A stretch of 64,000 nt of DNA, taken from contig NC_092576.1 of assembly GCF_037975245.1 (NCBI RefSeq), positions 42,909,611-42,973,610 on the forward strand, read 5' to 3'. Numbering within the stretch: the stretch's first letter is position 1; each line of letters starts with the position of its first letter. The position numbers and the translations under genes are program-made. A model generated the notes under the pieces. That model saw only the letters and a program-made list of their open reading frames with translations. It made no database searches and was not told where the DNA came from. Of this stretch, positions 34,625-63,560 are shown piece after piece. The DNA is from Apostichopus japonicus (lineage: Eukaryota > Echinodermata > Holothuroidea > Aspidochirotida > Stichopodidae).

Positions 34625-34630
34625 AACGTT

Positions 34631-35084
34631 TATGGCAAGCCATTTGGGACAAACACTGCATAATATATCAGCGTATTAATCGTTATTTATACGCGTATTT
34701 ATTGGAATATATACGCGTATATAGTATTAGCCAATCATATGGGCCAAATATATCCAATATATCCGCGTATTAATTCGAATATAATACACGTATTAATTCG
34801 AATATATACACGTATTAATTCGAATATATACACGTATTAAATAGAATACATATGGGGATTAAATCCAATATATGCACGGATTAATTAGAATATACACGAA
34901 AACACATTTTCGGTCTTGCTGAGTACATATACCAACGATAAATGTTTTGGCGGGCTCGCGAGATCGCTTCATAATGCGAAACTTTACACATGTACAACAC
35001 ATATATATTGGAATTAATACGCGTATATATTCGAATTAATACGCGGATATATTATGCGGTGTTTGTCCCACATGGCTTGCCATA
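34631..35084. mobile_element. 454-bp MITE, TATGGCAAGCCAT termini, TSD AACGTT
   Basis: Left end TATGGCAAGCCATTTGGGAC and right end (inverse complement) TATGGCAAGCCATGTGGGAC pair over about 55 bp. AACGTT flanks both sides exactly (34625-34630 and 35085-35090). The interior has short repeats of ATTAATTCGAATATATACACG and an AGCCAATCA word, and no coding capacity. The 6-bp TSD, TAT..ATA ends and the same subterminal layout tie it to the 21.9-kb element further right, so it is probably a non-autonomous IS3EU-like element. Confidence 0.85.
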
Positions 35085-35090
35085 AACGTT

Positions 35091-36880: not shown

Positions 36881-36968
36881 CGCGACGGTTTCTAAGTCAA
36901 GACCATTTCTGAATGGATAGTTCCCGAAAGGTTGGCTGTGTTTGCGCGGAGATCTCCGAGTAGACGGT

Positions 36969-37300
36969 TATGGTAGGCCATACGTGAAATAATTGCTGAT
37001 TTAATGTCCGTACGAATTAAAATTATGACCTGTATTAATTCTATTTAATACCGACATTAATTCTCAGCCAATCACCATGCAGCTTCATATGCCATTATTA
37101 GGCCTAAACAAATTAAAGAACGGTATTAATTCTAATATATATGCGGACATAAAACGAATTTATGTCCTTCATAAATACATTTCGTGCCCGCAATAAATAT
37201 ATTTTATGCCGGTATCAAAAACATAAAAATGAATTAACACGGGCATTAAATAGAATTAATACGGGCATTAAATAGAATTAATACGGGCAGTCGCGGCGGT
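36969..37300. mobile_element. One-ended TATGGTAGGCCA element remnant
   Basis: Starts TATGGTAGGCCATACGTG, followed by repeats alternating GGCATTAAATAGAATTAATACGG and ATTAATTCT words and a CAGCCAATCA word, the layout seen at the other TATGG elements. No opposite terminus or target duplication was found. Confidence 0.5.
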
Positions 37301-37856: not shown

Positions 37857-38570
37857 TCAGGGGCGGATGCAGGATTTTTAACAGGGAGGTCTGACTGGTC
37901 CAGCCGCGCCTGATCGAAAGACTATCTAAGCGGAGCGCCACCATCGGTTGGCGCGGAGCGTACCAGAAAATTTTTGGCTTTACAAACCCCCCCAGATGGC
38001 CGGAAACGGCACTTCCCGAGTATTCTAAGCTGCATGTACCTAGCCTGAAAAAATGTATCTCATGTCTGCAATTTCTCAATTGATGAGAAAAAACAATCTA
38101 TGAAATATGGTAATACATATCAGATGAGTTGAGATGATACAAAAATCATAATGCCACCAATCCCCCTCCCGTTCCGTACCACTGTTTGATGCAGGGCCTC
38201 AGTGGCTTAGCTAGGGGTATTGGTCAGGAGGGGCCAGAATGGTCAGTGGGCGCTTTCGACACTATCTAAGCGGATAGCGTACAGACATTTTTTGAGTAAA
38301 GATACTCCCTAGATCGCCGGAAATGACCCTTTCCGGGCCTGGCTAATTTGCAGATAAACGAAGAATAAATAGGTGTCATCGCCAAATTACACCAACAAAA
38401 TGTGACAAATGTCAATAAGTAGATGAGAGCGCAATAAAAAAGTCAATAATCGCGAATAAGTAAAAAGTGGTAAAGAGCTGAAAAGGGCGCCAGCAGTCCA
38501 TTTGAGTCCATGAGGGGGGGGGGGGGCATCCGCCCCCCTGACTGTATGGACGCTCCGCCACTGCAAAAAC
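37857..38570. mobile_element. hAT-like repeat fragments
   Basis: CAGGGGCGGATGCAGGAT at 37859 and CTCCGCCACTG near 38566 look like hAT termini, and a second start CAGTGGCTTAGCTAGGGG lies near 38200. The flanks do not show a matching 8-bp target duplication, so this is read as nested or truncated copies. Confidence 0.5.
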
Positions 38571-38858: not shown

Positions 38859-39343
38859 TGCCCAAACAATTCGAACACCACCTCAATTTTGAAACTTTTC
38901 GGTCTGAAAATTGAGATTTTTAGGCATTTTATGCACGTGTAGCACGCGTGCACACTATAGTTCATTTGACAGAAAAGACACACCTGGCTGACTTGTAAGG
39001 ATAACCGCCCTTCTGACGTCCTACATGTTTAAAATTGGTGTTTAATTTAATTATTTTTTCTCTCTCTCATTTTTTCTCTCTTCTTACTCCTTTTTTTTCT
39101 TTTTTTTTGGGCCGAGAGCAGGGGGGTCCGGACCCCCTGGACCCCCCCCCCCCCCCGGATCCGCGCCTGCATTTGAACGCATTTGAGTTAACAACATCCT
39201 TCCAAAAAGTTGAAAGCAACGAATGTTAACTGTATTCATCCGCAACGACTCGGCGTTATCTGTACTACTACAGCTCTTGCAACATAGACACTTGTAACGT
39301 TATTATTCATTGAAGCATGCATGCATTATATACTATGGCCGTA

Positions 39344-39779
39344 TATGGTTGGCCACAGTGGACAAAATTCGGGAATTTATGCCGACATATATTCGATTAA
39401 ATGCTGACATAAATTAGATTTTATGCAGACATTAATTCTGAGCCAATCAGGAGGCAGTTTTATATGTCTACATAAAATCGATTATATGCCCTCATAAAAT
39501 CGGTTTTATGATGGCATATATTCGATTTAATGCTGACATATATTCGATTTAATGCTGACATATATTCGATTTAATGCTGACATATATTAGATATAATGCG
39601 GACATATATTCGATTTAATGTCAGCATATATTCGATTTAATGCTGACATATATTTGACCAATGAGAGAGTAGGAATATATGTCTGCATATATTCACTTCC
39701 GACTACAATTCCGGCCACATCCGACAACAAATTACCCACATCCGACAACAATTCTTCAACAGCCAATCGCTGCGTTTGT
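39344..39779 (+). repeat. Left terminal inverted repeat of the 21.9-kb transposon
   Basis: About 436 bp. Outer part: unique terminal word, then CTGAGCCAATCAGGAGGCAG. Inner part: many copies of GACATATATTCGATTTAATG in direct and inverted orientation, which can fold into hairpins. The end next to the gene has CATCCGACAACAA words and AGCCAATCGCTGC. The ATG of the transposase lies about 170 bp further in, so promoter elements are probably in or just inside the TIR. Confidence 0.9.
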
Positions 39780-39946
39780 TAGAAATGAATCACGGCGCTG
39801 GTTTTTAAATACCAATCGTCACCAGTTACTCAGGGTCCATAGGATAGACTATAGTATAGGGTTAGCCCCGAGCATTGTTTGACTATATCCATGGCAAAGC
39901 GTGTAAGCCTGAGCCTGTTGTAAGCTTGTTTGCCTTTACCCTTATT

Positions 39947-42900
39947 ATGACCCGTTTGGACGACCGAGATCAATTCCTTCGGGATTTTCGAAGGGAGGTT
40001 AACGATTGTGTACGAGTAGTTACCACCCAACTCGACAATCAACAGGTTCTTGGTGATGTTTTGGAGAGACTTTCTGCCCTTAAACGAGATTTGCTCCACT
40101 CTCGGACAGGAGACATCGTTAGTGCGAGCGCATACGACTCCCTGCTGAGTTCACTAAACCGATTGGTTGAACTTGTGTCTCGACAAGCTGAAGTTGAAGA
40201 ATCAAACGCAGGTAGGCATTTTTCCCCCCAGAGTGACTTGAATGGAAGTATCAAAACACCTTTTGCAATATTGAATTCAATGAAGGTATTGGTTAGGCTC
40301 TAACCTAGTCAGTAGACCAAGCCTAGGCCTATAGCATACAGTGCATCATAGTCATGTAGCCAGAGGCATTTATTAGTTTTATTAACTACCGCCCTACCCT
40401 ATATTAGGATACCTTCCTGTAGTCGATCAGCGCATATCATTATATTAATTGCTGTAGGCCTAGTTGCATTCCCATATTTTCCTGCTTCCCCTATTTTCGT
40501 GCTTACGCGTCCCCTATTTCTGTGCAGTACGGACATACGGCATAAGGCTTAAAAAAATAACAATTTGTACAGTACAGAGTAAGAATACCACAAAGTGGAC
40601 ATTTTATATAAGTCACAGTATGCATGGGCCAGCCAACATGTATATCATGAGAAAGGGTCATATTTAGAAAACAGACCAATGCTGGAGAGGTAAAGATGCT
40701 GTACTGCAGTCTGTGCATATAATATGTTGTTTTATTACAAACAGGAGAAAATATAATTTCAGTTTTTTTCGAAGGGTACATGAAGTACCTTTCTATAATG
40801 AAACCTTTGAATTCTTCCTACAGTATGTCATCGCACCGTGAGGTGGTTGCAATGCTGTTTAACTAACTATATTCTGGTATCTTTTCTTTTGCATCTTCTG
40901 GCTGTCAACTACAGATGTAACCGAAAGTTTTGCCAGTACTCGTGTCTCCAGCAGGCAGAGAGGCTCTCCAAAGTTTAACATAACACGTGCTCAACTGGAG
41001 TTCTTAATAGCGTGCCGGTTTTCCAAAAAAAAAATTGCTGAAATACTACATGTTTCATCAAGAACAGTATCAAGGCGTTTCAAGTAAGTCTGTATTGTAC
41101 GTACTTCAGTTGGTTTTGTCGGATTTTGTCAGATCATGCTCTAACCAGTGATTGTCAACCGTGGCCCTCTCAGTGTGGCCCGGAACTGAATTTACATTTA
41201 AAGAAAACAAAAAAAAAGTAGGGAAAAATCATAACAGACTTGGGATAAACAACAAAAATCGTTGACTAGTATTTTAATTATATTTTTGAGAGCCACTGAT
41301 TCCTTCCCATCCACTTTACTCCCCTTAACTAGCTCGAAATTGATGTCTAGACTGCTTGGCATGTGACTCCTTTGATGGCCTTATGAATAGCCAGTGGCCT
41401 TTAACCTCAGCCCTACAGCTCTGTTTGGCCCTGGCTCTTACAAAGTTCAAGAATCACTGCTTTTAATTGTAAGGTTCCAGGGGTCAAATATTTTTTGACT
41501 TCACTTTTCATCATCAAGCTCATTGCATCATACTGTATACTGTAGGTATGCAGACTTGATTTTATACAGTAATGTGGCACTTGACAGACATTTATTTACA
41601 GCGGTGGAGTGGGTGGGGGCATAAAATGTGAGCGTACTATGTTATATGTGCATGATGGTTGACACTCCAGTGTTCATGTTTTACTAATGAGCCATTATTT
41701 GTTATGAATTTCAATGCCTCTCTAGACACTGAAGCAAAGATGACCTTCCAAGAATTATTGTGCATACAAGTGTGTTATGTTGATAGTATCCACAAAACCG
41801 TACATTACTTGCATGCATTTGTCGTTCACAGTGTACATGCGAGACACAGAAACAGGGAGTTGAGGTTATCCACTTTCCACACATTAAAATCCTGGAACAT
41901 TGGCATGGAAATTGGGAAAGAGTGTGGAAAGATCTTTCTGTATCGTAAATGAAAGTTCCTTACTACAATATTTGTGATCCTCCCTTTAGACTCTCAATAG
42001 TTTTGATCGGCAGCGTGCCAACAATTAGGGTAGGTATGCTGTGTTCAGATATATGCCTTAAATTGTCGTAAGGAAGAGTCTGGTAGACTTCTTAGTAGAA
42101 CCTTGAAAAGCCTGGACAAGGCAAGAAATTTACTCTGTTGTAAACTGCATGTCCAAATTGTGTTTGTCATGCATTACCATGCTACAAATAATTATAGAAT
42201 GCCATTACATGATGATAAGCAATCAAGATAGTAATGCATCATATTATCCTTTCAGAGAATTCAATCTTGACACAGAAGATTACAGTGACATGAGCACTGA
42301 AAGCTTGGATGAAACTGTGCAGAGACTCCTTGCTGGGAACCACAGAATTGGTGCCAATACTGTTGTCACTCTCCTCCACAATGAAGGAATTAAAGTACAA
42401 AGAGAAAGAGTGAGAGAGTCTGTCCGCAGAGTAGATCCTGCTGGCGTTGCATGCCGTTCTAGACGTGTGTTGAAACGAAGGGCTTACAAAGTTCATTGCC
42501 CAAACTCACTTTGGCATTTGGATGGCAACCATAAATTAATAAGGTTTGTACAGTAACCATTAAACATTTACTTTTAATAGTCACTTGAGGGAAGTGTACT
42601 GCACGTGCAGCACACGTTACTGAACATAACATTGACTTACACATTACATTTTTTTTGTGGTAACAGGTACAAGCTACCCCTCGTATTAAAACTCACATCT
42701 AGGCTTTTGCATGTGAAAGGTTATGTTGTTGTCAATAGAGGTCAAATAATGAAAACATAATTACTATGTATCGTCTTGATTAGTGTTAGCCGATATACAA
42801 AAAAATATGACAGAGTGAATGATGCAAGATGTTGCCATATTTTATTTGCAGATGGCGGATTGTTGTGCATGCTGGTGTTGATGGGTTCTCAAGACTAATA

Positions 42901-43611
42901 ACCTTCATGAAGGCAAGCACTGACAACAGAGCTTCAACTGTGTTTGAGCTGTTTAAAGAAGCCACAAAACAGTATGGGACACCATCACGTATAAGGTGTG
43001 ACAACGGAGGTGAAAATACAGCTGTTTGCCAATTTATGGAGGAATACCATGGTACAGGGCGTGGCAGTGCCATTAGAGGGAGGAGCGTGCACAATCAGCG
43101 TGTTGAAAGAAACTGGTTGGAAATGTGGAATGGTTGCATCAATGTATATTATGACCTTTTCACAAAGCTTGAAGAAGACAGACTCCTTAACCCTAACAGC
43201 GAAGAACAATTATTTGCCCTTCATTATGTTTATTTACCGTCTATTAATCATGCATTGAAAAAGTTTGTTCTTCAATGGAACCACCATAAAATGCGAACAG
43301 AGCACTCTTCATCACCTCTGCAAATGTTTGTTATGAGATCGCTAGAGGTTCAGGGTTCTTTATCAACAGCAGTTGTGGATATGTGGGAGAATGCAACCCA
43401 TCAAGACACATCCATAGATACAGCATCAAGGCATAGTGATGAAGAAGATGATGCATCGCTCACTTATGTGGATGTACCAACTACTGTAGCACCAATAACA
43501 GACACACAATTAGAACAACTCAGGCAACATGTCAACCCTATGGAAACGTCTGAGAATTTTGCTGTTGACATGTATCTGCAAGCTTTACATGTTATAAGTG
43601 AATTTCATTGA
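39947..43611 (+). CDS. IS3EU-like integrase-type DDE transposase, 493 aa, 4 exons
   Basis: Exons 39947-40211, 40915-41083, 42256-42543 and 42852-43611, all GT-AG with matching phases, join into 493 codons plus stop without interruption. Residues 1-88 are a charged N-terminal region (MTRLDDRDQFLRDFRRE). Residues 111-143 form a helix-turn-helix (ITRAQLEFLIACRFSKKKIA, SSRTVSRRF). Residues 146-230 are a linker with VQRERVRESVRRVDP. The catalytic core has D234 in LWHLDGNHK, D291 in RIRCDNGGEN and E326 in HNQRVERNW, with 34 residues between the second D and E as in IS3 and retroviral-type integrases. The family is the 'integrase core domain' group common in invertebrate and fish genomes. It should cut and join the element's ends in the nucleus. 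All key residues are present. The C-terminal 100 residues are acidic and less conserved. Confidence 0.9.
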
Positions 43612-46195
43612 CTGTTAGCTTAATAATGTACCTATAGTACAATATTGCAAGAATATATATTAAAAAGGTTAAAAAATGAAGCTCATTTGTCTATTTCCCA
43701 TCTTCATAGCTAATTCAGTTGCTTAATTTATTTATTCACTTTACATGAAATAGTGGATTGCTGATATTGTGTGATGTCCTTCTTGTACTACTATTACTAC
43801 TTTCTTGTACTACTATTGAAATGAATATGTTTACATTACCTTGCAAAATGACCCCTTTCTTGCATAGCATTTTGTGTGGATAGGGTCTGCAAAGTCAGGT
43901 CACTATAAATATTAGACAGTGATCACATTTTGGCAAAAGGTGTAGTGGCCTTTGTAAAAACAAAACCAGTAATCTGAGTAGTAGTAAAATAGTGATATTT
44001 CAAATTATTGTGCAATTTTCTATTGAGTGAATAAACTTCAATATTTCATACCTTAGCACAGGAATGTACGATAGCCTAGGTCAATGCAAACTCCAGTAAT
44101 TCTGAAAGCCCTACAGAAACAATAACCACTGTTTGAAAAGAAAGGTGCAATACTTTATTTTGTTGGTAAATACAAGATTTTGTCCCTTCAACAGAATTTG
44201 AAAAACCTTTTTTATGCTTTTGCACTAGATTGTCTTCCTGCTAACAAGTTTCATTGGGAGTATGCACATCCTAAAACACTTTGTTGGGCTTTGTAAATAA
44301 TTTTTAGTCTTATACACTCTTTTGTAGGAACAACTTAACTATTCCTAACTTCCCTTGTACCACTGGTGAAGCTTGCAAAGTGCCACATACAGTATTCAAC
44401 ACCAAAGCTCCTGGCAAATTTTGCTTTGTACATTATATCCAGCCATCTTTGTTAGTAGTGGTTTTGCTTCAAAACTCAAGTCATTATCATTGCTTTTAAC
44501 TCAGACACAAAGTTGCGGCAGAAAAGAGGTTTTCATAGCATAGAAAATACATTGTAGCATATGCATTCACCTATTGTGCCAGTTAATTTTAGCCACTCCT
44601 TTTTGAAAACTAGAAAGTTTAGTGATTCATAGCCTATAGGAAATATTCTTTAAGTTTATGGTGGTTTCAAATTGACATGACTTCATCATGAAGTTTCTTT
44701 GTTTACACTTACATACGGAATGCTAAGTAGGAGACCCTGCCATTCCAGAGATATTGTGTTCACATGCACATCACATAGATCCTTTTTGCCTTTGGCAAGG
44801 AATCAAAGTGTAATATTTTTAGAGTTTTGTAATATATACTGTAATATTCATTTCCAACATGCTTCCTGCACTTCCATTTATGTTCAGAAGATCATTGTTC
44901 TCCAGAACAGTTACTTTGGAACTTTGTTTCTACACTATAAACCTTGTGCTCTAGTACATTTTTCTGTTATCATACTGATGGCTTTGTACTTTTACTCTTA
45001 TGCAAGGCTTTGTACTGGTACTTTTGTGCATTTAATATGTCAGATTGATAGCAGTACAGGAGTCTAGAGAAACCTATGGATAGTTGGTACTGCTAGTTAG
45101 TAATTAGTATTCAGGTTCATTCATGAGACCACTGCAACAGTTACAATATGACTGGCCAAGGCTCAACCTCAACTTAATTAATCTGTATATAGCAGCATAT
45201 TCACAACTACATTCAGTGGCTGCTGCCAGTAATTTGAACCTTTCTGCATTGAGTAATAACGTTCATGTAAACCTGATGGCAATGTAGAAGCCCAGCAATG
45301 TAGAAATTCTTATTTTGACATTTCATCCTAGTCAGTGGATGGAACTGGTAGTGTCACAACTGAAACCCCTCTCAAAAAGTTGTAACAATGATATGAGACA
45401 GTGTAATCATATGCAAACTGTACACTTCACAAATTATGTATGTTTGCTCAGCTTTATGTTGAACAAAATCATTGTGTAATCTGAACAAAGAGGTATATTG
45501 ATGCTGCAGTAATATATTTGAAGAAATTGCATCAGCCAATCAGTAATGTGAAATGTCATTTTTCATTGGCTATGCACCCTCATTATCTGTGCATGTTTGA
45601 GGGGTTTTGTCAAATTTATGGTGTCAGAATGGGGGGGGGGGGGTTGTAAGGGAGACCTGTGACCCTAAAGGATAGAACAAGTGGGACCAGTTGGACAACT
45701 GTTTTTCTTAATTACTTAATTCAAATGTTAAGGGAGGCTCAGTGAAATATTTAAGCCATGTGACAAACATCAAATGATATTACGTATCCCTCAGAACAAA
45801 GAGTATAGACATTAGAGAGGTTTGGTCTCGATGAGAGTTAAACTAATATCAGACAAGTACTTTGAGCTGAACATGTGTTTATTTAATTTTATTAAGACAA
45901 ATGTCGTGTTTGAGTAGTTTTCAGTCTATCGAGTTGTCATTACATTTGGTTATTAAACATCAGCCCTTCAAAACTTACATCTGCTTATGTTTGAATAATT
46001 TATGTATCTTTAGTCTTATGATGTGTCACTGACAGTAATCTTTGGGAAAAACTGGTAGTACTGTGAGAGCCTTCAACTTGGTTCCCATGCAGTAGGGGAA
46101 AGTGTGGGAACCCTGCTTCAATATCATGTGACCTCTATTCCAGTTACAGTAAGGACATTAATATTGCAAACAAGCTCTGCCCATTTCTAATGAAT
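43612..46195. other. Transposon interior with no gene seen
   Basis: About 2.6 kb of AT-rich sequence after the transposase stop. A poly-G tract lies near 45630. Short frames (for example 44699-45067) have no recognisable domain or good splice borders. It may hold the transposase 3' UTR and spacer. Confidence 0.45.
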
Positions 46196-46199
46196 GATT

Positions 46200-48197
46200 A
46201 CTTGGTAGCAATGCTTAACAAATCTAGTACAATAGCTAATCCTCTTCCAAAAGGTAGCACACAATTAATACATTTAACCAAAAAAAAAATGAAATAATGA
46301 AGACAGCCTTGGCAGTATAAAGTTAGTTTAATGAAACATTTATAGTAACATAAGTAAATTTGAAAGCAGTCAAAAAGTTTGTAAAATGATATGTAGAAAT
46401 ATATAGGCAATGTACATTGCTTTATGCTGACAACTGAGGACGGCATGAAAGAGTTGGAGGGAATATCTATTACACCCATTGTGGCAAGAACTATCGTCCA
46501 ATAGGGCATGCTAACATTGCCATCAAGTGTACACTTATCTTAACAATGTTGTTATTCATTTATGTCTGTCTGATGAAGGGGTCTTACTCAGACAAGACCA
46601 TAGAAAAAAACACATTTATGATCTAGTTATATAGAGTAGCTAATCATCTTCCAATGTAGCAAAAAGTAGCACACAAGTAATACATTTAACAACAAAAAAA
46701 GAAGAAAAAATGAAGACAGCCTTGGCAGTGTGTAGTTAGTTAAAACATAAATACATTTGAAAGCAGTCAAAAAGTTTGTAAAATGATATGTAGAAATATA
46801 TAGGCAATTTACATTGCTTTATGCTGGCAACTGAGGACGGCATGAAAGAGTTGGAGGGAATATCTATTACACTCATTGTGGCAAGAACTATCGTTCAATA
46901 GGGCATGCTAACATTGCCATCAAGTGTACACTTATCTTAACAATGTTGTTATCCATTTATGTCTGTCTGATGAAGGGGTCTCACTCAGACAAGACCATAG
47001 AAAAAAAACACATTTATGATCTAGTTATATAGAGTAGCTAATCATCTTCCAATGTAGCAAAAAGTAGCAAACAAGTAATACATTTAACAACAAAAAAAGA
47101 AGAAAAAATGAAGACAGCCTTGGCAGTGTGTAGTTAGTTAAAACATAAATACATTTGAAAGCAGTCAAAAAGTTTTTAAAATGATATGAAGAAATATATA
47201 GGCAATTTACATTGCTTTATGCTGGCAACTGAGGACGGCATGAAAGAGTTGGAGGGAATATCTATTACACTCATTGTGGCAAGAACTATCGTTCAATAGG
47301 GCATGCTAACATTGCCATCAAGTGTACACTTATCTTAACAATGTTGTTATCCATTTATGTCTGTCTGATGAAGGGGTCTTACTCAGACAAGACCATAGAA
47401 AAAAACACATTTATGATCTAGTTATATAGAGTAGCTAATCATCTTCCAATGTAGCAAAAAGTAGCACACAAGTAATACATTTAACAACAAAAAAAGATGA
47501 AAAAATGAAGACAGCCTTGGCAGTGTAAAGTTAGTTAAAACATAAATACATTTGAAAGCAGTCAAAAAGTTTGTAAAATGATATGTAAAAATACGTAGGC
47601 AATTTACATTGCTTTATGCTTGCAACTAAGGACGGCATGAAAGAGTTGGAGGGAATATCTATTACACTCATTGTGGCAAGAACTATCGTCCAATAGGGCA
47701 TGCTAACATTGCCATCAAGTGTACACTTATCTTTATGTTGTTATCCATTTATGTCTGTCTGATGAAGGGGTCTCACTCAGACAAGACCATAGAAAAAAAC
47801 ACATTTATGATCTAGTTATATAGAGTAGCTAATCATCTTCCAATGTAGCAAAAAGTAGCACACAAGTAATACATTTAACAACAAAAAAAGAAGAAAAAAT
47901 GAAGACAGCCTTGGCAGTGTAAAGTTAGTTAAAACATAAATACATTTGAAAGCAGTCAAAAAGTTTGTAAAATGATATGTAAAAATATGTAGGCAATGAA
48001 CATTGCTTTATGCTTGCAACTAAGGATGACATGAAAGAGTTGGAGGGAATTTCTATTACACTCATTGTGGCAAGAACTATCGTTCAATAGGGCATGCTAA
48101 CATTGCCATCAAGTGTACACTTATCTTAACAATGTTGTTATCCATTTATGTCTGTCTGATGAAGGGGTCTTACTCAGACAAGACCATAGAAAAAAAC
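46200..48197. repeat. Tandem array of a 0.4-kb unit, about 5 copies, inside the transposon
   Basis: The junction word ATCTAGTTATATAGAGTAGC occurs at 46621, 47019, 47416 and 47810, giving periods of 398, 397 and 394 bp. A more diverged first unit precedes at about 46213. Each unit contains GAAGACAGCCTTGGCAGTG, GGCATGAAAGAGTTGGAGGG and TCTGATGAAGGGGTCT followed by a hairpin and AGAAAA. The last unit ends at about 48197, 140 bp past the stop of the HECT gene, so the array separates the 3' ends of the two converging genes. High similarity suggests recent expansion. Confidence 0.9.
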
Positions 48198-48338
48198 TGA
48201 AGTCTTGTTACTTGTTCCTTGAATAAGACTGACTACTAACACAAATCTGAAGTGAGTTTACACCCCCTACCCCTCCCCCTCCCCATAGGTGGTTAGTGTT
48301 AGTAGAGCTTGCTTAAAAACTTTTAAGTTCCATGGCAC

Positions 48339-51300
48339 TCATGAAATAGAAAACAAATAGCCCTCATGCCCTCCACTCAAAATAGAATTGAATTCATATC
48401 GCAGGTCTGTGATGTCTGCATACATGACTGACAATTCCAGGACAGGACCACATGTCCTGGCAACTGGCCTTCTTTGCAGTCCAGCAATACTATTGAACGT
48501 AACTTCTATTGAAGCTACGGACATGACAGAGGAGCCAGTGCAGAACTTAAGAAACCTTGAGAGCATGTCCCTTTCAAGACCTCGAACATACATTTTTAGA
48601 AGTTGAAATACTTTTTGCTCTCTTGCAGAATTTACATTTGCTTTGAGGAGTTTAATCACTTTTCTATTGGTAGGAGCTATTTCCTTTACCAGTGACTGGA
48701 TTGAACTCACATCGGTGAAGTCGGGTCGCAGGTACCTTCTAGTCACATCAGCCATGCACACAAGAGGATACTTCGAAGTTTGAATTAATATCTTGTGTGC
48801 TATTTGGAGCAAGCATTTATCAAAGTGAGCGTGGTTGCCACTGTTGGGAATGGCTGAATTCCACCCACTGTCTGCAAGAAATTCAATCAAGTCAGTTTGG
48901 TCATCATCATCGAGAGGATTATCTCTTGCCCTAACAAGCATATCCTTCACGTCTTCAGGCGAATAGCTATACAAACTTGAGAGTAGCATGTCGTCTGTAA
49001 CCATTTCTTCTCCAAGCAGCATTGCTGTTAAAAAAGTAATGTTAAGTCTTATTGGAAAGATCTTGTGGTCTTTATATCCTTTCACTAAAATGTGACCCAC
49101 TGCCAGCCATTCTTCCCTACAATACTGAACCGTGATACAAGGCACAACTGTGTTACTCCCAGAAGTACGCCTGTCATAAAAAGCATCCCAGAATGAGCTA
49201 TATGCATCCCGAGACACCCCTGACTGGTCAACAGCAGACTCGCCCACAAAGCTGAATGTCAGCTGTTGGTGAATTATTCCTTCAGACTGGAAGGCAACTA
49301 TCATATCCTCCAGTACTTGCAGTCGATGTATTTTTACTTCTCTCACATCATCCATGGGAGGTGGGGGTGATGGTGATCTTGGTGACTGTGGCGGTTGTGT
49401 CTGTAGGGTAGGTGGAGGATGTACTGACACTTGCAGAGGTGATGAAAGTGACCTTTGTGGCAATGTAAGATCTAACTGCGGTTGCCCTGAAGGCGGATGC
49501 AGTAACTCTCCCATCTGTGGCGACGGTGACCTTGAAAACGGCTGAGGTCGCATGGATGAAGAAAGTACTGACTGTGGCAGCACTGGTGGTAGTGAGTGTT
49601 GTGAAGAAGAAAAACTTGATCCTTGACCTTCAGTACTGCTACCATAAAGTGAATGTTCCTGTAAAAGACCAAAAAAGAAATATAAGCAATTATATTTCAA
49701 CTCACCATGAAGTAGGAACTTAAAATGTAAAACTGGACAACTTTTCACAATTTTTGCATGCCTGGCAACATTACATCTTGAAAAGCTTAAATTTATCAAT
49801 GTTCTTAAGATAAACTAAACCCCAGGTATGAATGAAATCCCAGGTAAGTTGACTAAGGCAGTTGGTTATATTGTAGCACCCTGAATAATATACAGATACT
49901 ACTCATGACCTCAGCAAAATATGCAGTGAAAGAATTCTTTTCAATTTTAATATACTTACAAAGAAAAAACAGAATGCAAAATATGCACTGAGGTCTTGAA
50001 GACTGCATAACACAAGACTTAGACTGTATTTTGATCAGAAATGGCTCTTATGAATGTCCAGAACCACTATTATGATGATCGATAACACAATGCAGGTCAT
50101 TTTACTGTAGCAGTACAGACCACCAACACAAAAGGGGTCTTGCATGTACTCAATATGATGTAGTATCCATTCTTCCTACCTGGAGATATGTTTAGTTTTC
50201 AGAGTTTGAACTCTGGTGACAACAGATGAGCTCTGACATCCATCAAAAAGAAGTGTTCTTGCACACAATAAATGACATTGACAAACAATCTAGGAGAGTT
50301 ATCCATGTTTCCTACCTTGGGATACCATTTTAATAGGTTTAGCATTTGCCCTATGGTAACTCTAGGTGAACTTTGATCTCAACCAAAGCAATAGGCTTCA
50401 GAGATTTGATTTAACACATCCACATACCATGCATGAGGAGATCTATATGCCTCTTATGTTGAGATAGCATGTTTACAAGATTTCCAGTTTGACCTCTGGT
50501 GACCCAAGATGACCTTTGACATATACCAAAACACAACAGCTAACATGTACTTAACAAGACACATCCACATACCAAGTTTAAAAAGCATCCATACATCCTT
50601 CTTAAAGATATTGTGGTTTCAATGTTTTCTGCACTTGACATCTGGTGACCCATATAACCTTTGACATCTACCAAAAACAACAGGATTATTCTACTCTTGT
50701 GAAACATCCACATACCAAGTATGAGAAGTATCCATGCTTCCTATCTGTCACCAGGACTGCATAGGTTCTGATATTCACAAAAAATGGAAAGGCCTCAGAC
50801 AGCAGCCAATGCTTTACTGTGCATAATCAAAACTAAATATGTCTGTGCAATAGCAGGAGGAATCTGACTACAACAATCACCTGTGCAAACTATCAATTCA
50901 AGTTCCAAACAAAAATGGTAACAAGAGGAACCAACCTGATTACTTGCTGTACTGCTCTTTGCAGGTGAAGTTTCACCAATGACAGCAATGTCAAAGTCAG
51001 ATAACTAAAAATGAGGAAAAATATTTATATATATATGAGAATATAAATATGTGGCATTATTGATACTCCCCTCGTTTTGCGAAGCAAGCATTGTTTACCA
51101 AGCATGAATATATGTAACACTGAGGTAGCAGGCAACAAATGTGACCTCATTACTACACTCATCACACGCATATCGAGATTGCTCTTTCCTCCTCCCAGGA
51201 TAATAATCCCTAACAAACTCACAGTAGGTAAGTGGTAACAACAAACATGCCAAGAAACAACTCCATTTAAAGCCAAAACCCTCAGAGCTGTTACTTGACT

Positions 51301-54300
51301 ACATGTTGCAATTGGCGAGTCCCCCAAGCCTAGTTCTTACACCGATATGTGTAAATGGCTAATGTCTATGAATCAACTGAAAATGCAGAAGGGAAGTGTG
51401 ATTATACTTATGATCCTGTTTATCAGGGAGCATGATAACAGCTAAGTTTTACTCGCAATGCTGGAATTACCATATATGAAACAATGAGCTAGGCATATAC
51501 ATAGCAAGAAAGGGCTTTTGAGGGCAACAGCAGCAAATATTGTTAAGTCAATAACTGAAAACAGTCACTAATTTGCTGCTACATTTACTCCCAGCTATCC
51601 AAGGAGACTGGAAAATCAATCCTTTGAGGAGTATTTTGAATATGTGAAACAAACTAACCTCTGGAATATCCTCACTACTACACTCATCCAAATATGGCAT
51701 AATATGCAGAGTATCTTCGAAGTCATCATCGTCGTCACTGTCATTGTTCTACATATAAAGAGAAAGCCACAAACAAATTTACACCTATGCCAACAGTACA
51801 AAGGCAGGGATCCATTAAAGCTGGTAATCAGTTAATTCCCCTCCCCCCCCCCCCCTATTGCATATTTGTTACCAGCTATGTGCATCAGGAAGGCACTCCA
51901 AATATCTCCAATTTCAAAAACAAAATGTCACCCATTTAAACCGCCCAATATGCAGGTGAGAAGTACCTAGCATTAAATGTTCTTGTTCAACATAGAACGA
52001 TCCATGCCAACATTCTATGATTGTCAAAGCAACTCAACTTAACCTTCAGCATCAATCTCTTGCATGTGTACTAGGATGCAGTGATCACTCAAACATGCAT
52101 AGGGCAGAATATATACAGCTCTATTTTATAAGCTTTCTAGCCCTCTGTTGACACCTTTGGTGCCAATGCTATTTCCACCTATCTAGCTTATTTTACCTGC
52201 TATACAAAAAAATGAAAAAGCAACCCCTGCTAAAGGATCAATTACCCTGTTTAAATTGAAGAGCACTGAAGGAGTACCAGATGCATTTCTTCTCTCTCTT
52301 TCACCATTGAATGAACCCGAAGAGCATGGTTCTTCTAGTGCTTGGTCTGGCTGTATCTAGAGGGCAGGAATACAAACATTGGATTATTAAAATGTGAAAG
52401 TAAAGACTACAAGTACCTTATGTCCATTATGAGCCGATTGATCAAAATTGATGTGGACTGAATGCTGCTTTCATTTGCAGCAAATAATCACTGATGGGTT
52501 AACTGCAAGATGGCCAGACTCCTTTAAATGTATCTCTGAATTTTGCAGTTCTATTGACTCTGAATACTTCAATGACTGAAATGGTTTCATCAGTGACTAC
52601 CACCACCTTTTATTATTTTAGTTAAAGACCTTGTGGCTATATGTAATCACTAAAAAGAAAGAATATTTGTCTGTTATTCTGGTCACAATGTAATAAATGA
52701 TAACTTTAAGAAAGATGATTAGGAAAAATCATAATAATATTAAGAAATGGAAAGTGCATCTCATCAAGTTACTGCAATTTTTACTTCCTAATATTGACAC
52801 CTGTTAACTTACCCATGCAACATTAACAACACATGCTGATGTAATTCATACATCCTGCAATGTTTTATAATGAGATTCAGTGGATGAAATTGACCTTTGC
52901 CCTACAGCATTGAACGTAAAATGCTCCGTTGCACCTTCAAGGGAACCAATCCAAGTCACCAAAACCTGAAATGATGAAGTAAAGTTTAAACTTCTTTAAT
53001 AAGGACTGTTATTAGTAGTACAGCACACCTCATTTAACCAGCATGTTATTAAATATCAAAACATACAACAGCCATTGTAAGTTTCATATTTATTGTGTAA
53101 AATGTAATTTAAGGCAATACCTTACCTCCTTATGTATAATGTATAGGGGGATGAGATATTGTAATTCACCAGACAACAAGGATGTGCATTCAAGATGTAT
53201 GTGAGTAAATATCTAAGTAAGTGAGTATGTGCATGTAAGCAAACATGTCTGTCGCGAACTCCTTCTCAACGATACATCCTTTCAAGTTCAAACTTGGTGG
53301 GTAGGTGCCTAACCATGACAACCTGTGTGGGCATAATTGATGTCATAGGTAAACAGTCACAGGTCAAATAACCTACAAAATTGGGTTTTTGCTATCTTTT
53401 TTTTTCTTGCTATTGCCTGTTTTCTGGTAAAATTACCTCATTGATTTTATGAATTTTCGTAAGCTTTTATCAAATGAGTCCATGAGAGTACTTGTTTGGG
53501 TCTTCAAACTCTGGAGAACTGCCTCATGTCATCATTACATTGAGAAAACCTCCAAGACAACAATACAGCATAATTATCTAAACTAATTCTCAAATGCCAC
53601 TCAAGTAACGAAAAGTAGGGATGCTGTTTCAGGGTATTTAGCTACACATTACACTAGTAACCCTGGTGGAAATTCCAGTTGAACTTTTGAACTCGGTTCA
53701 ACTGGAATTTTCTATATGAAAATTGGCCCAAATTTGAACTAGGTTGAAATGGGTGAACTGGGGTTCCCAACTGGTTCAACTATGTTTTACTGGGTCCAAC
53801 TATGTTTTACTGGGGTTCCCAACTGGTTCAACTATGTTTTACTGGGTCCAACTCAACTATGTTTTACTGCGTCCAACTGGTTCAACTATGTTTTACTGGG
53901 TCCAACTGGTTCAACTTTGTTTTACTGGGTCAACTATGTTTTACTGGGTTCAACTGGGTCAACTATGTTTTACTGGGTCCAACTGGTTCAACTTTGTTTT
54001 ACTGGGTCAACTATGTTTTACTGGGTTCAACTGGGTCAACTATGTTTTACTGGGTCAACTATGTTTTGCTGGGTTAAACTGGGTGAACTATGTTTTACTG
54101 CTAATATTTTTAAATAGTTTGAACTGGGATTCTCAACTGGTGTTATCTACACAATATAACACCACACTATAAAGTTTTCATTTTTTTACAGTAGATCTAT
54201 ACTGTATGTAAGGGTGTAAGTCACTGAAAATAGATGCAAACATACTAGACTGCTGGCATCTTAGCTGTATGCACCTTCAAGTTTAATCCTACATGTTAAG

Positions 54301-57300
54301 TTGTGTGCATGTCACGTATATCGTACTAATACAGTTATTTACAATCTTTCTGGTACATTATCAAATTTATTGGTGTCACACTTATGACAAATTTTTACAT
54401 GTTACTTGCTACTTCAAATTATATATTGTGTACACATTTCACAGCAGAATGTAAAAGTATGCTAGGCTGACATTTGTTTATGGAAGGGCCTAAATACACT
54501 GATCACAGTTCAGTTATGACACGACCAAGTATACTTACTGAAAGAGCATTATCACAAGAAAACTTTCGTTGAAAGCACCCACTTTGAGTTCTGCATTTCA
54601 CTTTAAATCCTTCCTCTGGCTCTGGCAAAGATTGAATTGCTTCAATCCGGTTATGTCTGATCTAATATATTTAAATAAATGAAAATGCAAGCAAACTAAC
54701 ATTTGTGTACATGTATACAATTTATGTCCAACTTCATTAGGCATGGAAACTATGTAAAATGTATCCTATATGATCTTCTATGGAATGGAAATGTAGTTAC
54801 AAGTGGGGAGATTGAGTTATATTTAATTTTTTTTAAAGTCGGACACCATTTAGTGTTCTGCAGTGTCTCTTTTACAAGGCCAGAAAGTTTGTACTGTATT
54901 TATATTTCAAGACCCACTTCCAGGGAGATTAAATATGATAAGCTGTTGCTGAGATTTACATGGGCTTCTTTCATTTATTCGGTAGTTTTAAATCCATTCC
55001 AATTGCCTAGATGTAATTCACTTCAACAAGTGGCTTACGTATCTAAACAATGCGTTCATGTGTATATTGGTGGCGCATACACTTTAATGACATGTTTCAT
55101 AACAATTGAAATAACTGCTCACTGAAATGAATCATACATATGAAGGTCCTCCGTTAACAAGGGACTGCTTACAAATGAGCTAAAGAGGAAGTAGTCTCAA
55201 TTTTGTTACATAATTAAGGGAAAGTTTGCATAAGTTTCCTGAAATTACCAGACATAAATTCATTCATATCTTGACATAAAACCCAACTACTTTAATACCT
55301 GTCACTAGATGTCTAAAGAAACTATGTATTCTTATTTCTCAATAGACTGGCAATGTCATGGCAGTTAATACATTCACCAGTGGTAGTCTACATATATAGA
55401 AGACGACAAACCCCATTTGTATTAACTTTCATATCCGTTGTAAAGTCTTATAGTTCTCAAGAACGAGACAAACAACAGGTTACTCCCTGACCTTTACAGT
55501 TCAAATTTAACTTCAAAGGAAGCGCTTGCATCTCCTTATAAATGTTTTAGCACTTCCCTAGTTAAACCATGCAATGTGATAGACTCCAATGAGAAAAATA
55601 CAATAATCAAGTAAAGGATCTTACCTCATCCAACTTGTGCTTTATGTTTTGCTGGAGTTGCACTGACGCGTCCTGCAAAAGACATGAATTTGAATTGATT
55701 CCATTAGTAAGTCCAGTATTCCATACATGGTATACCAGATTGTTTGAAAGTCAAGTTTCTCCGTGTAGCACACAGGAACAAGCACATATGAATAATCTCA
55801 AATGGAATGCTACATGTGAACACTTCAAAACTTAACACAAAGGTCTTACTTCTAAACAGGGCTGTCCTTTAAAACTTGCCAAGTCCCCTAGGACAAGTGA
55901 CCGTTCTGAAAGTTCTAATGAGAAAGCCAAAGGCTTAGTGATTCCTTGCAGATTGGACATATTTTCCAGGGCTCGATTTTAACAGTCGTCCAGTAGTCCG
56001 AGACAACCAAAATTATTGAAGGACAACTAGAAGTAATCAGGCTGGTCGTCCGTTGGATGACCAGCTTTGATGGAAAGAATTTTTCCACTTAGCTTGTTTT
56101 CTGTTTTCTAACCGAAACTTAATATGTAAAAAAGTTGTGAACATGGCCTATCTTTATTCATAAAGGTTTTCTGCCTTTGGCAGAGCAGTTTAAAAATTCT
56201 TCACTTTTAAATTTCTTGGAGAACTTAAATATCTTTTGGACAACCAAGAAAGACTGTCTGATGGACGGACAACCACCAGATTTTATTAAAATCGAGACCT
56301 GTCTTTTTTCAGTACCATACTGTAGTTTCAAATTGACAGTTTCATGGTAAAGCTACTGTCTTTATATTAAGGTGTATTGCAGAATGTTTAAGACCCATGG
56401 GCACTGACTAACATTGTTTTGAACCATGCCTCACAGTATGAATCATCAAAGTTTCCCTTATGAGATATCATGTTCACCAGGTTTTTACAATTTGAGATCT
56501 GGTGACATCTCAAATGACTTGTGGTTTCCATCAAAAACAAGTTTTTCCACTAAATTACTGAGCACCCACATGCCAAGTATCAGATTTTGTTCTTGAGATA
56601 ACCTGTTAACCAGGTTTCCACAATTTGATTTCAAACGACATTTGACCTCCTTCAAACACGAAAAGAATCTTTTATTCAAGTATAAAATCCATACCTATTT
56701 CCCTTCTTGGGATACCGTTTTACAAGTAAAAAGTAATATGGGAAAGTGAATTCTGGAAGATACTTGCCTGCCGACTAACATACAGCTCTGCAAAAGAGTT
56801 AAACATCGGTATATTTTGACAAAGATAAAAATGTTACCATTACAAAACTGTAACAGCCCTGGCTTGACATAATCAACACTCATTATGACTGCAAAATGGC
56901 AAAATGAGTGGGGAAACTGCTATCAAGCAATTGCTCCATGAGTATATACAACAGCAATCTCAACGGACATTCTTGCAGTAACCTTGCAGAGAGTAACATT
57001 TTATCAAGGCATACTGCAATAGGCTTAATTCACACAAAACAGATTGCAGATTTGTCTGGAGGTTTGAGAACTACTGTATGCTCTCATAGGGTTTTTGTCT
57101 TCTTATTTTTTACTCACAAGGCATTCTATTAATACCACAAACGAAAGCAGAAACAAAGTGATGCATAGTATCATTACGTAAAGACAATTGCACATACATT
57201 ACACTGTAAGCAAGCAATCTCAAGCAATGTTTTCTCCTTTAACTGCATACAAGATTGATTTCATTTGACTGTGTCCACTGACATATAGCTGTGCGTTTCT

Positions 57301-60300
57301 TTATTTCTTGATCAAAGCCATCAGAAATACATTACATTTACTACACTGTCATGTGCACCACAATAACCCACTTTTGCTATTTATTTAAGCTACACAGAAC
57401 ATACCTTTTGCTGGTCTTTGGCAGAAGTAGATGCAAATTCTCTGTCTTGTTGGCAGGGCAAGCAGTTGGGGCTGGATAAATCCAGTGTCCTGTGGCATGT
57501 GCTACAGACAGGCCTCTGCATTGAATAGAAAATTCAAAGACAACGATCTGAAGTTTCTGTGTGTTCTACAGTTTGACAGAACTTTGCAACTTTCAGGGTC
57601 ATTCTGGGTTCTTGAAAGGGGTAAACCATGACATTACCTGTAAATGCCCTTTGCAAAATGTGTTTTGCATACCTACTCTGTGATCTCATAGATGGGGAAA
57701 CTTTGAGAATTTGAATGCATAACTTTTTCAAGAGAAAAACAGCTGGTGTTGTACCGATATCACCAGGAACCGACGTTACCAATATCTGATGTTTCCGTTT
57801 TCAAAATTGGCCAAATAGCGATATTTTAGAAACAAGACATATGTGCACTGTACACAAAACCCTTGGCTATTGTGCACTATGTAAGAGATCAGTACAGTAA
57901 GTCATTTATTATACAGGTCAAGTATAAACAAACAGTAGTTGAGTGAAGGGCACACTCCCGACAGACAAGAAACATTGTGGTTATGATCTGGTATTAGCAT
58001 GAAGTGTCATTTCCAACGGTGAAATTTACAGGGCCGATTGGCGCCTATTACCTGCCAAACAGCACCTGTTAGACCCAAAAGAACACTACCAGGCACCACT
58101 TTTTTACCAAAGTAACACATGCCATTTACTGAAAGTAACACACGCCAATGGGTAGACTGAAGCTAAAACTTTGTTCATTGTGTTCATCTTTGTCCTGATT
58201 TCTGTCTCCTGGTAAACCTAAGGTGGCTCCTGGTTCCACCCAAAAACCAGGGAACCAGCAGACACTTTCGAACTGGAAGTGGCTCTTGGTTCAGCCGACC
58301 TAAGTTCACCCTTGGTCATTATATACATGAGGTAAAGTAATGGTACTTAAATGGTCAGACAAAATAAAATAACATATTCTTTGTATGAAATATAGGCCTA
58401 GTAATATTGGTTGGGGAGTATCGGCAGTTTAAAGGTAAATTTTACCGCTACTGATACCCTGTATAGGACGAATATGAGGAATATAGGCAGGTGCTGATAT
58501 GGAATACCGACAATTGTTTTTTTTCTTTCAAAAATAAAAAAGATTCATAATAATGTAATTCCATATCCATCTAATCTCATTGGACAACAGAATGCATGTT
58601 GGTGGTAGTAGGTTTATTATGTAATTCATTTTCAATGGTTCAGTGGGCAATATATTACAGTGATTTCACTGTGTGACTTACCAGACTGGCAGATGGTGGG
58701 ATTGGTTCACAAGGAACTATGTAAATACACCTTCGCGCCCTGTTGACTTTTAGGGAGGCTGGTGTAGTTTTCTCAGGCAAACCTAACAGCTTCCCATCAG
58801 CTCCGCTATGAGCAAGTCTGAATGGTGTTTCCTTTAAGGCTGGAAATTTTCCCCAAATAAAATTGGTAAACTGAGCTGCAGAAAGATCAGCTGGGACGAT
58901 GCAATCCTCTGTGAGATTTCCTGAATGAAAGAAGATGCAAAACCAGGATGCACTGTAAAACTAGGCAACAGGTTGCAAAATAACATTGAAGTTTGAGAAT
59001 TACCTCAACAGTATTTGTGAGGTCAATAAACAAACTCAATTTCGGTGTCAGATGTTATGTTTCGATAGGTTGAATTGGGGTTGGATATTATCCAATCAGA
59101 TGGCTTATAGGAAAATAAAAGTGACAATTTCGGCTACTTATTATTTTTTTGGGCTCCCCGTTTTCCACTTTGGCCCCTGGATCCCATGAGATAGGAGCTA
59201 GGTTGGCTAACGGCTAAGGAAAACTTAGTTTGACCCCTAGAATGCAGTTCTGTTAGTGTACTTCCATGAATTATATAACAGTATAAAAGCATCCACATGT
59301 CCTGATAACAGATCACATCATTTCCTCCAGATGTCATGTACACAACCTTTTTCATATTGCAACTTCTATTGACTTTGAATGAAACATTTGGTCTCCTTGC
59401 ATATTTCATATTATGGGTACATCCACATGTATACTAAGAATGACATCTTGCAATGTTAAGTTTCTTGCTGATATTGTATTACTAAGTTTTCACACATGAC
59501 CTACTAACATTATTTTGTACCTTTGACTCCTTGAAAACAACCAGAGCAGTTGTACACAATATGACTCATTCATTGCACTACCATCCATTAATGGATTATT
59601 GAATTCAATAAGCTTTGATGTTTAACTGGTATTTATACTGTACAGTATTAATATTACCATTCATGAGTTACCATACATGGTGGTGTTGCAAGAGTTTTAG
59701 ACCCTTGAAATTCAGATACTCACAGGCATGTTGTTAGTACTATTCATATACTGTATGACTGTAAATACTAGATCAACACTGAGATTCATTAACTGTGTTA
59801 GCAAAATACTTTTCAGTAACATAACACTTTGTACCTAGACCAATCCGCCTTAAAGCTTTCAAAGCTTTCCATGAGCCTGGCCTCTTCTGTTGATTTGGTT
59901 CTTTCAGAGCCACCAACTTCAAAACATATCCTTTTGTCGGCCTGCCTCTTGTGACCTTCTTCACCCTGTGCCGTTTCCCAGTTACTGGTGGTGACTGACT
60001 TGTTCGTCCTGATTTGAATCTGACCAATTGAAAGAGATAATTTCATATCGTACAACTCAAACATATGGAAGCATGGGGACATTAATATTACATACACATA
60101 TTTTCTTAAATTACTAATAAATTCATGTTTGCATTGAAAACCCTTTACAATTACTTACTATATAAAGGGATGCCCAACTCACAGCAACAATATTTTGGCA
60201 TAATGTGGTAGCCCATAAAAGACAGACACACATCTGGGTCTACTCTTTTCATTTACATTAATATTTACACAGATTGAAAGAGGAAGATTCACCACCTGTG

Positions 60301-60696
60301 TCATACCGAGTCATCATAGTAGAGAACTCCTGTTTTATGACTGTGCATCCTTAATAAATTAGCATAATTAATACATGGTCGAGTTCTTGTCTAGTACAAT
60401 AAAATTTAGAATCTTTAATCGGATAGCATAGAACAGGCTTTAAGTTAGGTCAAGGTTAGCCTATAATCCTGTTCTAGTACGACTATCTGGATAGGCCTGG
60501 ACTGGGCCATGTTAGGGCCTAACTTTTGGGTATAGCCTATCTCTTACGTTAGGCGGCGGCTAAGATGGACCTACCTCTGTACAAAACTTGACACGAAACG
60601 CGCTCTTGCTGGTCCTGTGCCACTGGAACTTGCTTCATCTAATGTTTGGTTAATCGAATTTTGCGTACGAAGAATCTCTGGTAGTAATTCTTCCAT
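48339..60696 (-). CDS. HECT-type E3 ubiquitin ligase-like protein, 843 aa, 11 exons
   Basis: Minus-strand exons: 60696-60575, 60019-59835, 58920-58682, 57515-57405, 55672-55625, 54661-54539, 52965-52852, 52356-52246, 51748-51659, 51004-50936 and 49658-48339. All have GT-AG borders and compatible phases and give 843 codons plus stop. The basic N-terminus (RHRVKKVTRGRPTKGY, 41-102) is followed by a FPALKETPFRL..G / IYIVPCEP region (103-182), a CxxC..CxxC zinc-ribbon-like motif (183-205), a UBX/ubiquitin-like segment with a CFQRKFS core (about 250-300), acidic and Ser/Pro-rich linkers to 505, and a HECT domain (506-843). The HECT domain shows FVGESAVDQSGVSRD, FLKFCTGS and TCGPVLEL; C807, 37 residues from the end, sits where the catalytic Cys belongs. 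Similar proteins are often annotated as G2E3-like. It probably conjugates ubiquitin. Whether it aids transposition or blocks host defence is unknown. Confidence 0.87.
53744..54110. repeat. Minisatellite in an intron of the HECT gene
   Basis: Short units built from CAACTATGTTTTACTGGGTC with variable CCAACTGGTT inserts, repeated about 15 times between exons 7 and 6. Three plus-strand frames stay open only because the unit lacks stops. They are not genes. Confidence 0.85.
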
Positions 60697-60849
60697 GATG
60701 ATTTTGAAACCACTCAACTTATCTTTGACGATACTACACTATTTACTGTATTATACACCCGCTGGCATGGTACGATACAGTACCTCAAACTATAGGAACC
60801 GTAGGCTATAGTAGTAGGATTATCCCACGTTTTAGTCAAGAGTATGTTA

Positions 60850-61262
60850 CAAGAGCAGCGATTGGCTATTGAAGAATTGTTGTCCGAATGAAGGTAAATT
60901 ATTGTCGGATGTGGGTAAATTGTTGTCGGAAGTGAATATATGCAGACATATATTCCTGCTCTCTCATTGGTCGAATATATGTCCGCATTATATCTAATAT
61001 ATGTCAGCATTAAATCGAATATATGCTGACATTAATCGAATATATGTCAGCATTAAATCGAATATATGCTGACATTAAATCGAATATAATGTTAGCATCA
61101 AACCGATTTTATGAGGGCATAAAATCGATTTTATGTAGACATATAAAACTGCCTCCTGATTGGCTCAGAATTAATGTCTGCATAAAATCTAATATATGTC
61201 AGCATTAATTCGAATATATGTCGGCATAAATTCCCGAATTTTGTCCACTGTGGCCAACCATA
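60850..61262 (-). repeat. Right terminal inverted repeat of the 21.9-kb transposon
   Basis: Inverse complement of 39344-39779 with point changes and small indels (about 413 bp). It carries the same CTGAGCCAATCAGGAGGCAG word, the GACATATATTCGATTTAATG repeats and the CGATTGGCT end. The HECT gene's ATG lies about 150 bp inside it, mirroring the transposase at the other end. Confidence 0.9.
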
Positions 61263-61268
61263 GCCGTA

Positions 61269-62045
61269 TATGGCATATATTAACTGTTTTGGGTGATGAT
61301 AAACCAAGGACAGGAAATCGATCAAGCAGTCTTTATTAGACCAGAGGGTGTTATGTTCTCAGTGATACACTATAGACCAACGTGTGTTTATTCGTTAGAT
61401 TAATCATCCATTAGGCCTTCTGTGCAAACCACCGTATGTTCGTAAAATTTCGCTAACTAGGCGAGAATCCAGTTAACGTTGTATGTATGTATGTATTTTA
61501 GATCCTCCTGCAAGCAAGAACTCGCTAAGAAACCATCATTGGCTTATCAAAACCGCAAGCTGACCGAAGTCAGTCTCTTAGATTCATTTTTAACGTCTAT
61601 GATTAAAAATTGTCAATTGTCAACAGCTCTGTAACTGCACGACGTACATTAATTAAAGGGTGTGAAGACTCGCGCAAAAAGAAACGTCTAATGCCGGTAA
61701 TTTGACATAGTTTCGAATTAGGTGTAACAGAAGTGTTATTAAACACCACCATCGATCCCAGAAAATACACACACAGCTTGCTACCGTCGGTAATGAGACA
61801 CTAGTGTACAGTCAGTACATACAGCTGCGGTCAATACCCACAGTACAGTATATACAAACGATACAGCGATGGACATCTCAGGTCCAGCTAAAGATAACAA
61901 TTAAGGTATCATGTTTCATTACTGTCTGCATTTTGTAGCGACGCGGACAAAACTTCACTTGCAACTTAAGCAACAGGAAGTTATATTTTTCAGATGGCCG
62001 CACGCGGTTTAGGGCGAGTCTTCAATGCCTTCAATCTTGGAAGTG
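61269..62045. other. Right flank of the transposon, no gene seen
   Basis: Continuation of the host site interrupted by the transposon (left flank ..ACTATG, right flank TATGGCATATATT..). It contains a short GTAT repeat near 61480. No exon or RNA gene was recognised. Confidence 0.5.
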
Positions 62046-62982: not shown

Positions 62983-63560
62983 CAGTGGCGGCGGAACCGG
63001 GGGGCTTGGGGAAGGGGAGGTTGGGGGGCTCAGCCCCCCAATGAAAAAGTTGAGGGGGCAAATGCATGATAAGCCCCCCCCCCCAATATTTACCAAGGCT
63101 CCGAAACGTGCATCTGCCCATGTTTCAATGCATACTTGTCGATCTGTCCGATGCACACGTATACTATATATATGTGTAATAATTTTAGTAAATGCTGGGG
63201 GGACCCTCGGCCCGTCCCCTGGCTATAGACCACATTGTCACCCCGACCGCGTCTTCACCCCCCCCCCCCCCCGTGAAATGTGGAAGCAGTAATAGCTACA
63301 CTCTTAAAACACCATTGAATAAACAAATTACAATGTTTTTACAGATTTTTACGTGCAATCTGAGAAATTGCAGGTTTGAGACCCATATTTTAGGGCTAGG
63401 TATTCGCAGCATTAAACATTCGGGAAGTGCCGTTTCCGGCCATCTGGGGGTTTGAAAAACCCAAAACTATATTGTACGCTCCGCGCCAACCGATGGTGGC
63501 GCTCCGCTTAGATAGTCTCCAGACATTAGCCCCCCTCCCCCAATAATTTTCCCGTTCCGC
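62983..63560. mobile_element. hAT-like repeat debris
   Basis: CAGTGGCGGCGGAACCGGGG at 62983 is a typical hAT-type end with poly-G. The segment 63400-63530 (GGGAAGTGCCGTTTCCGGCC, then GCGCCAACCGATGGTGGCGC) is an inverted copy of 37910-38020. No transposase or matching target duplication was seen. Confidence 0.5.

Follow-up and report, generated by a model that had tools for sequence, protein, structure and literature searches.

A 64,000-bp stretch of the genome of the sea cucumber Apostichopus japonicus (contig C16, positions 42909611-42973610, within an assembly of 671.6 Mb; hereafter the window) raises the question of whether almost 22 kb of DNA, held between two inverted repeats, moves as a single DNA transposon, and of what the second of its two genes contributes. 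The reading proposed here is that the element at 39344-61262 (21,919 bp) is a DNA transposon of the IS3EU type, complete and recently mobile, in which a predicted HECT ubiquitin-ligase gene, convergent to the transposase gene, is a resident second gene. A probability of roughly 85% can be given to this reading. An animal DNA transposon of 22 kb that is complete, very young and open in both genes would offer a live case for the study of the cargo of large transposons.

An earlier note, made from the sequence alone, had described a whole transposon of about 21.9 kb, an exact 6-bp duplication (GCCGTA) and inverted repeats of about 0.41-0.44 kb, and all of these were found. The target-site duplication (TSD) occupies 39338-39343 on the left and, as an exact match, 61263-61268 on the right. 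Between them lie terminal inverted repeats (TIRs) of about 0.42 kb, whose tips read TATGG..CCATA: the left TIR (39344 to about 39780, plus strand) starts with TATGGTTGGCCACAGTGG, and the right one (about 60850 to 61262, minus strand) terminates with CCAACCATA. An array of units of about 22 bp, held by the left TIR, makes up much of the TIR sequence. The arms 39327-39517 and 61089-61279 (191 nt, reaching a few bases past the tips) show 92% complementarity, followed by 88% over a further 117 nt; by BLAST, the right TIR matches the left one at 86%.

A genome search for further copies, as the earlier note had proposed, yielded a second full-length copy at C17:3915727-3938103 (22,377 bp), flanked by a different and equally exact duplication, TGCGGG. 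The alignment of this copy with the window starts at 39344 and halts at 61262; only secondary alignments run on, by a few flank bases that match by chance. The two genes are convergent, and a 397-bp tandem repeat lies between them (46347-48197; 4.7 units in the window); about one additional unit explains part of the extra length of the C17 copy. With tandem and inverted repeats excluded, 110 of 14,396 non-coding, non-repeat sites differ between the copies (0.76%), and the start, splice and stop signals of both genes are kept in both of them. Because this second complete copy has its own TSD and differs at so few sites, the whole 22-kb unit was recently mobile as a single piece, which supports the recent look noted for it earlier. 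The remains of a third, broken copy lie near C16:29.53-29.554 Mb, with one matching end; its transposase pieces are 89% and 73% identical and its HECT pieces 90%, 75% and 54% identical, several of the pieces containing stops.

Both multi-exon genes, which had been described as open when spliced by eye, are open in both full copies, with GT-AG introns throughout. The transposase gene lies on the plus strand and has four exons: exon 1 (39947-40211) with the start codon; exon 2 (40915-41083) with a helix-turn-helix region (HTH_23, residues 119-148, E 2e-4, below the curated cut-off); exon 3 (42256-42543) with the first catalytic Asp; and exon 4 (42852-43611), in which alignment places the second Asp and the Glu, followed by the C-terminus and the stop codon. 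The product is identical over its 493 residues to the A. japonicus database protein P0009. The residues D234, D291 and E326 are invariant across 39 aligned proteins. The transposase is of the IS3/IS481/retroviral-integrase DDE type; its NCBIfam scores are under those families' own cut-offs, as expected for a eukaryotic relative.

The second gene lies on the minus strand and its spliced product has 674 aa. Exon 1 (60575-60696, with the start codon), exon 2 (59835-60019) and exon 3 (58682-58920) are identical in the C17 copy and absent from the database model P0001 (BSL78_17181), which begins later; exon 4 (51659-51748) and exon 5 (50936-51004) are present in that model. Exons 2 to 5 have GT-AG junctions and are in frame. 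The last exon (48339-49658) bears the HECT domain and a putative catalytic Cys motif, RRPVARTCGP; the product matches Pfam HECT and has a predicted HECT fold. The catalytic Cys of HECT E3 ligases sits close to the C-terminus, within a TC motif. In an alignment of 24 sequences, T312 of the motif is invariant and C313 is present in 23, P0005 having a Gly. Judged by its predicted fold and its catalytic Cys motif, the gene encodes a HECT-type ubiquitin ligase. The "large eukaryotic enzyme gene" of the earlier note can thus be specified, and it is a recurring partner of the transposase, not a peculiarity of the copy in the window. Eight HECT relatives came from a first search and six from a profile search, which scored the 7993 candidates with the most words in common. 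When PDB was searched by sequence with the HECT domain, a single weak and unrelated match resulted, and scans of viral contigs with the transposase and HECT alignments gave no relative.

It should be emphasized that the 674-aa model omits four internal exons of P0001 (55960-55850, 55672-55625, 52965-52813 and 52356-52246), an omission that keeps the frame. The third of these, 52965-52813, contains a stop codon in the window copy and none in the C17 copy; if the four exons are used, the ligase of the window copy would be truncated. Between the two copies, these exons show six replacement-type changes (the stop included) and one silent change, and 7 of their 423 sites differ, which is above the non-coding rate (p 0.05). 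The large intron of the gene also contains a minisatellite, identified by repeat analysis (53789-54101).

One line of evidence that the ligase gene belongs to the transposon is its recurrence. Genome searches gave 92 matches in 67 clusters for transposase exon 4 and 37 matches in 30 clusters for the HECT domain. As many as 20 of the 30 HECT clusters have a transposase no more than 25 kb away and are oriented towards it; one other is within this distance in another arrangement and nine have no transposase there. Random placement of the HECT loci on their own chromosomes (2000 trials) produced a mean of 0.13 such cases and a maximum of 2, and the ligase is therefore a recurring second gene. In the crowded region of C17 at 15-26 Mb, convergent pairs were observed in 4 of 9 cases, against a random mean of 0.12 and a maximum of 3. 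It was also observed that 25 of the 67 IS3EU-type transposase clusters, many of them partial matches, are concentrated in this region of 11 Mb; one guess is that it accumulates such elements, perhaps as heterochromatic or sex-linked DNA. Since the two-gene pairing recurs in a good part of the relatives in the genome, the ligase gene would seem to be a standing part of this transposon branch.

Between the window and C17 copies, the ligase shows four replacement changes over 1556 sites and ten silent changes over 469 (Fisher p 1.6e-4). This apparent depletion of replacement changes should be read with care, because the silent divergence of the ligase (2.1%) exceeds the non-coding divergence, which inflates the selection ratio, and pooled coding sites have not diverged significantly less than non-coding ones (p 0.11).

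Besides these two points, several others weigh against the proposed reading. The transposase has only one replacement and two silent changes between the copies, too few for a conclusion (p 0.13). Ten of the 30 HECT clusters have no convergent transposase within 25 kb, and 47 of the 67 transposase clusters have no HECT match within the same distance; some of the latter are fragments, and in others the HECT gene is perhaps absent or too diverged. The pairs that were compared amount to about eight families, several of them with near-identical copies, and copies within a family are not independent. Furthermore, transposase and HECT distances agree only partly: the correlation over the eight families is 0.43 (1278 of 40320 permutations, p 0.032), and six families alone give an r of 0.47, which is not significant (65/720). 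The correlation is broken by family F, in which the HECT piece is short and seems nearer to the family of the window; when family F is set aside, r reaches 0.69 (4/5040, p 0.0008). Altogether, within this genome the ligase looks like a long-standing partner of the transposase, and at least one exchange may have occurred.

The best surviving alternative is that a host gene, the HECT gene, came to lie between the two TIRs by chance capture and is an inert passenger with no role in transposition. The putative nature of the ligase function and the large share of transposase clusters without a HECT neighbour agree with it, as does the finding that cargo genes of fungal transposons, IS3EU included, pass between superfamilies (PMC12730594). 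However, a chance capture fits poorly with convergent pairs that recur in about eight diverged families, with a catalytic motif kept in all but one of the aligned sequences and with the depletion of replacement changes between the two copies, and this alternative is considered unlikely. If, as favoured here, the ligase gene is resident in the transposon, some annotated HECT-domain genes of animals would be transposon genes and not host genes.

The earlier note had assigned the element to IS3EU, and the comparison of its termini, TSD length and transposase class with published descriptions supports this. IS3EU has been in Repbase since 2013 and comprised 45 families in 2022 (PMC10045372). As described there, IS3EU/GingerRoot elements have TA..TA termini, a TSD usually of 6 bp and an IS3/IS481-related DDE transposase without the HHCC motif (PMC10045372). 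The element in the window has TA..TA termini at 39344 and 61262, exact 6-bp TSDs in its two full copies and no HHCC zinc-binding domain upstream of its core, no such Pfam match being obtained at E values up to 1. Its HECT second gene, its length of 21.9 kb and its probable CpG-centred insertion are its own in comparison with that description (PMC10045372). No IS3EU-labelled protein is found among the 120 matches listed for the transposase.

Membership in another integrase-type superfamily (Ginger1, Ginger2, Polinton or a new one) is quite improbable. Polintons, or Mavericks, encode a protein-primed DNA polymerase B along with further genes of virus-like character. In 19 open reading frame pieces and the two spliced products, a set that does not cover shorter or highly diverged pieces, no domain of a polymerase, a capsid or a zinc-binding integrase was detected above cut-off; a few weak virus-named matches (E 0.05-0.1) are far under cut-off. 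It is true that Polintons also produce 6-bp TSDs, the length seen here, and that IS3EU/GingerRoot and IS481EU do not form distinct groups in the published tree (PMC10045372). However, the TSDs of Ginger1 (4 bp) and Ginger2 (4-5 bp) differ in length from that of the window element (PMC10045372), whose tips equal the TAYGG..CCRTA of fungal IS3EU families (PMC12730594).

Among the closest known systems are the TET+ IS3EU of rust fungi, which share these ends and the 6-bp TSD and in which the transposase is opposed to an accessory alpha-kinase gene (PMC12730594). Their accessory genes are an alpha-kinase and a TET/JBP dioxygenase instead of a HECT gene, and the word "ubiquitin" is absent from the main text of that publication (PMC12730594). 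In Zymoseptoria, Styx has an IS3EU-related transposase, a 6-bp TSD, additional co-opted genes and recent activity, but it is about 7.9 kb long with a TIR of 36 bp (PMC10853768). Kolobok lineages are likewise DDE transposons marked by a resident accessory protein; they differ by another transposase superfamily, and the accessories named for them are nucleases, a helicase and KolX, with no ubiquitin ligases (PMC9587614). Among the publications listed in a search whose matches were judged by title and which left subscription journals and Repbase outside, none connects a HECT ligase with IS3EU or with a DNA transposon of any other kind. The family may already be in Repbase, with nothing said there about its second gene. 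The superfamily itself is thus already known, and the HECT-bearing form is rated as new as far as the search reached.

A further reading takes the 22-kb unit for a composite or a segmental duplication, in which the ends of a small element flank a duplicated host gene region. It can be dismissed almost entirely: this genome does contain duplicated segments or larger elements, as seen from a pair at C17:6.33 Mb and C16:29.80 Mb, but the similarity between the window and C17 copies stops at the TIR tips, each copy has its own exact 6-bp duplication and the transposase lies open inside the element, and for these two copies the boundaries and the differing TSDs refute it. The pair just mentioned, family C (C17:6.326-6.341 Mb and C16:29.794-29.809 Mb), is another transposase-HECT pair and represents either a young element of very large size or a recent segmental duplication. 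As its copies are 99.6-99.8% identical across all the flank fetched, the element ends, or a larger duplicated segment, lie further out.

For the IS3EU-type transposon itself, a mechanism can be suggested by analogy with its family. The transposase, which presumably performs the transposition reaction, would bind the long inverted repeats and bring the ends together. It would then cut out the 22-kb unit, or the unit would be copied by repair after cutting. The ends would be joined to staggered cuts 6 bp apart at a CpG-centred site, and repair would produce the 6-bp duplications. The ligase, if active as its predicted fold leads us to infer, probably acts on proteins to the benefit of the element; most likely it would tag a host silencing or DNA-repair protein, or adjust the level of the transposase. 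A role against host silencing is the leading guess, because fungal IS3EU carry an alpha-kinase gene opposed to the transposase and a TET dioxygenase; the latter is thought to counter methylation (PMC12730594). Alternatively, the ligase may regulate the transposase or take part in repairing the site from which the 22-kb unit is excised.

A broader proposal, to be held tentatively and at somewhat less than even odds, is that the element represents a deep animal branch of IS3EU with its own HECT ligase as standing second gene, which would degrade or alter either the transposase or a host protein of silencing or repair. This gene would then be the animal counterpart of the fungal alpha-kinase and TET genes and, as far as searched, the first ubiquitin ligase known to belong to the core genes of a lineage of cut-and-paste transposons. 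If a transposon lineage does carry a ubiquitin ligase, the use of protein degradation by mobile elements against host defence becomes directly testable.

The ends of the element are far more numerous than its full copies. The outermost 18-mer of the TIR occurs 59 times in the genome, and the reversed control does not occur at all. TSDs were sought at four further end-bearing loci, of which L005 is not readable, and the readings do not include families B to H. Both ends are present in three small relatives (0.35-0.53 kb), whose duplications match at 6/6 (TTCGTG), 5/6 and 5/6 positions. Other ends form series. For example, four exact terminal 18-mers in one orientation are found on C23, at 1687792, 1710303, 1732011 and 1754228; with a spacing of 21.7-22.5 kb they form a tandem array whose unit is about the size of the element, and no transposase match was found there in the genome search. 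In the same way, terminal 18-mers at C13:9220459, 9260485 and 9300512 are 40,026-40,027 bp apart and belong to a tandem segmental duplication with an inverted-repeat end.

The bases next to these ends point to a likely CpG-centred insertion target. The dinucleotide CG stands at positions 3-4 of the six adjacent bases in 36 of the 40 ends read (out of 59), and in 21 of 25 distinct 12-base flanks, versus 2 of 125 dinucleotides further out; the CpG frequency in the window is 0.023. The pattern NNCGNN fits both full copies and the three small relatives. On the other side, many of the ends with a CpG flank have one common flank (tatcacAACGTG) and do not represent separate insertions. In this group (L082-L119), tatcac followed by AACGTG is common to many ends; either these relatives multiplied inside another repeat or the flank belongs to a larger non-autonomous element. 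Among the TSDs quoted for Styx (ATCGAG, CGTGAT, TGTGAT and CATAAG), one of four is CpG-centred (PMC10853768). A CpG-centred target would provide a simple and testable rule of insertion.

Some other repeats of the window lie outside the element. Ends of a giant element had been considered at 7.5 and 31.4 kb and were rejected, these being mainly direct, not inverted, repeats of one dispersed repeat. Two inverted copies of one repeat (85% over 166 columns) lie at 37919-38082 and 63356-63518, 1.3 and 2.1 kb outside the element. Finally, the region 34622-37289 contains arrays of a 22-bp AT-rich unit (AATATATACGCGTATTAAT...) in both orientations, which resemble the TIRs of the element in their build and differ from them in sequence; they are perhaps the ends of another IS3EU-like family.

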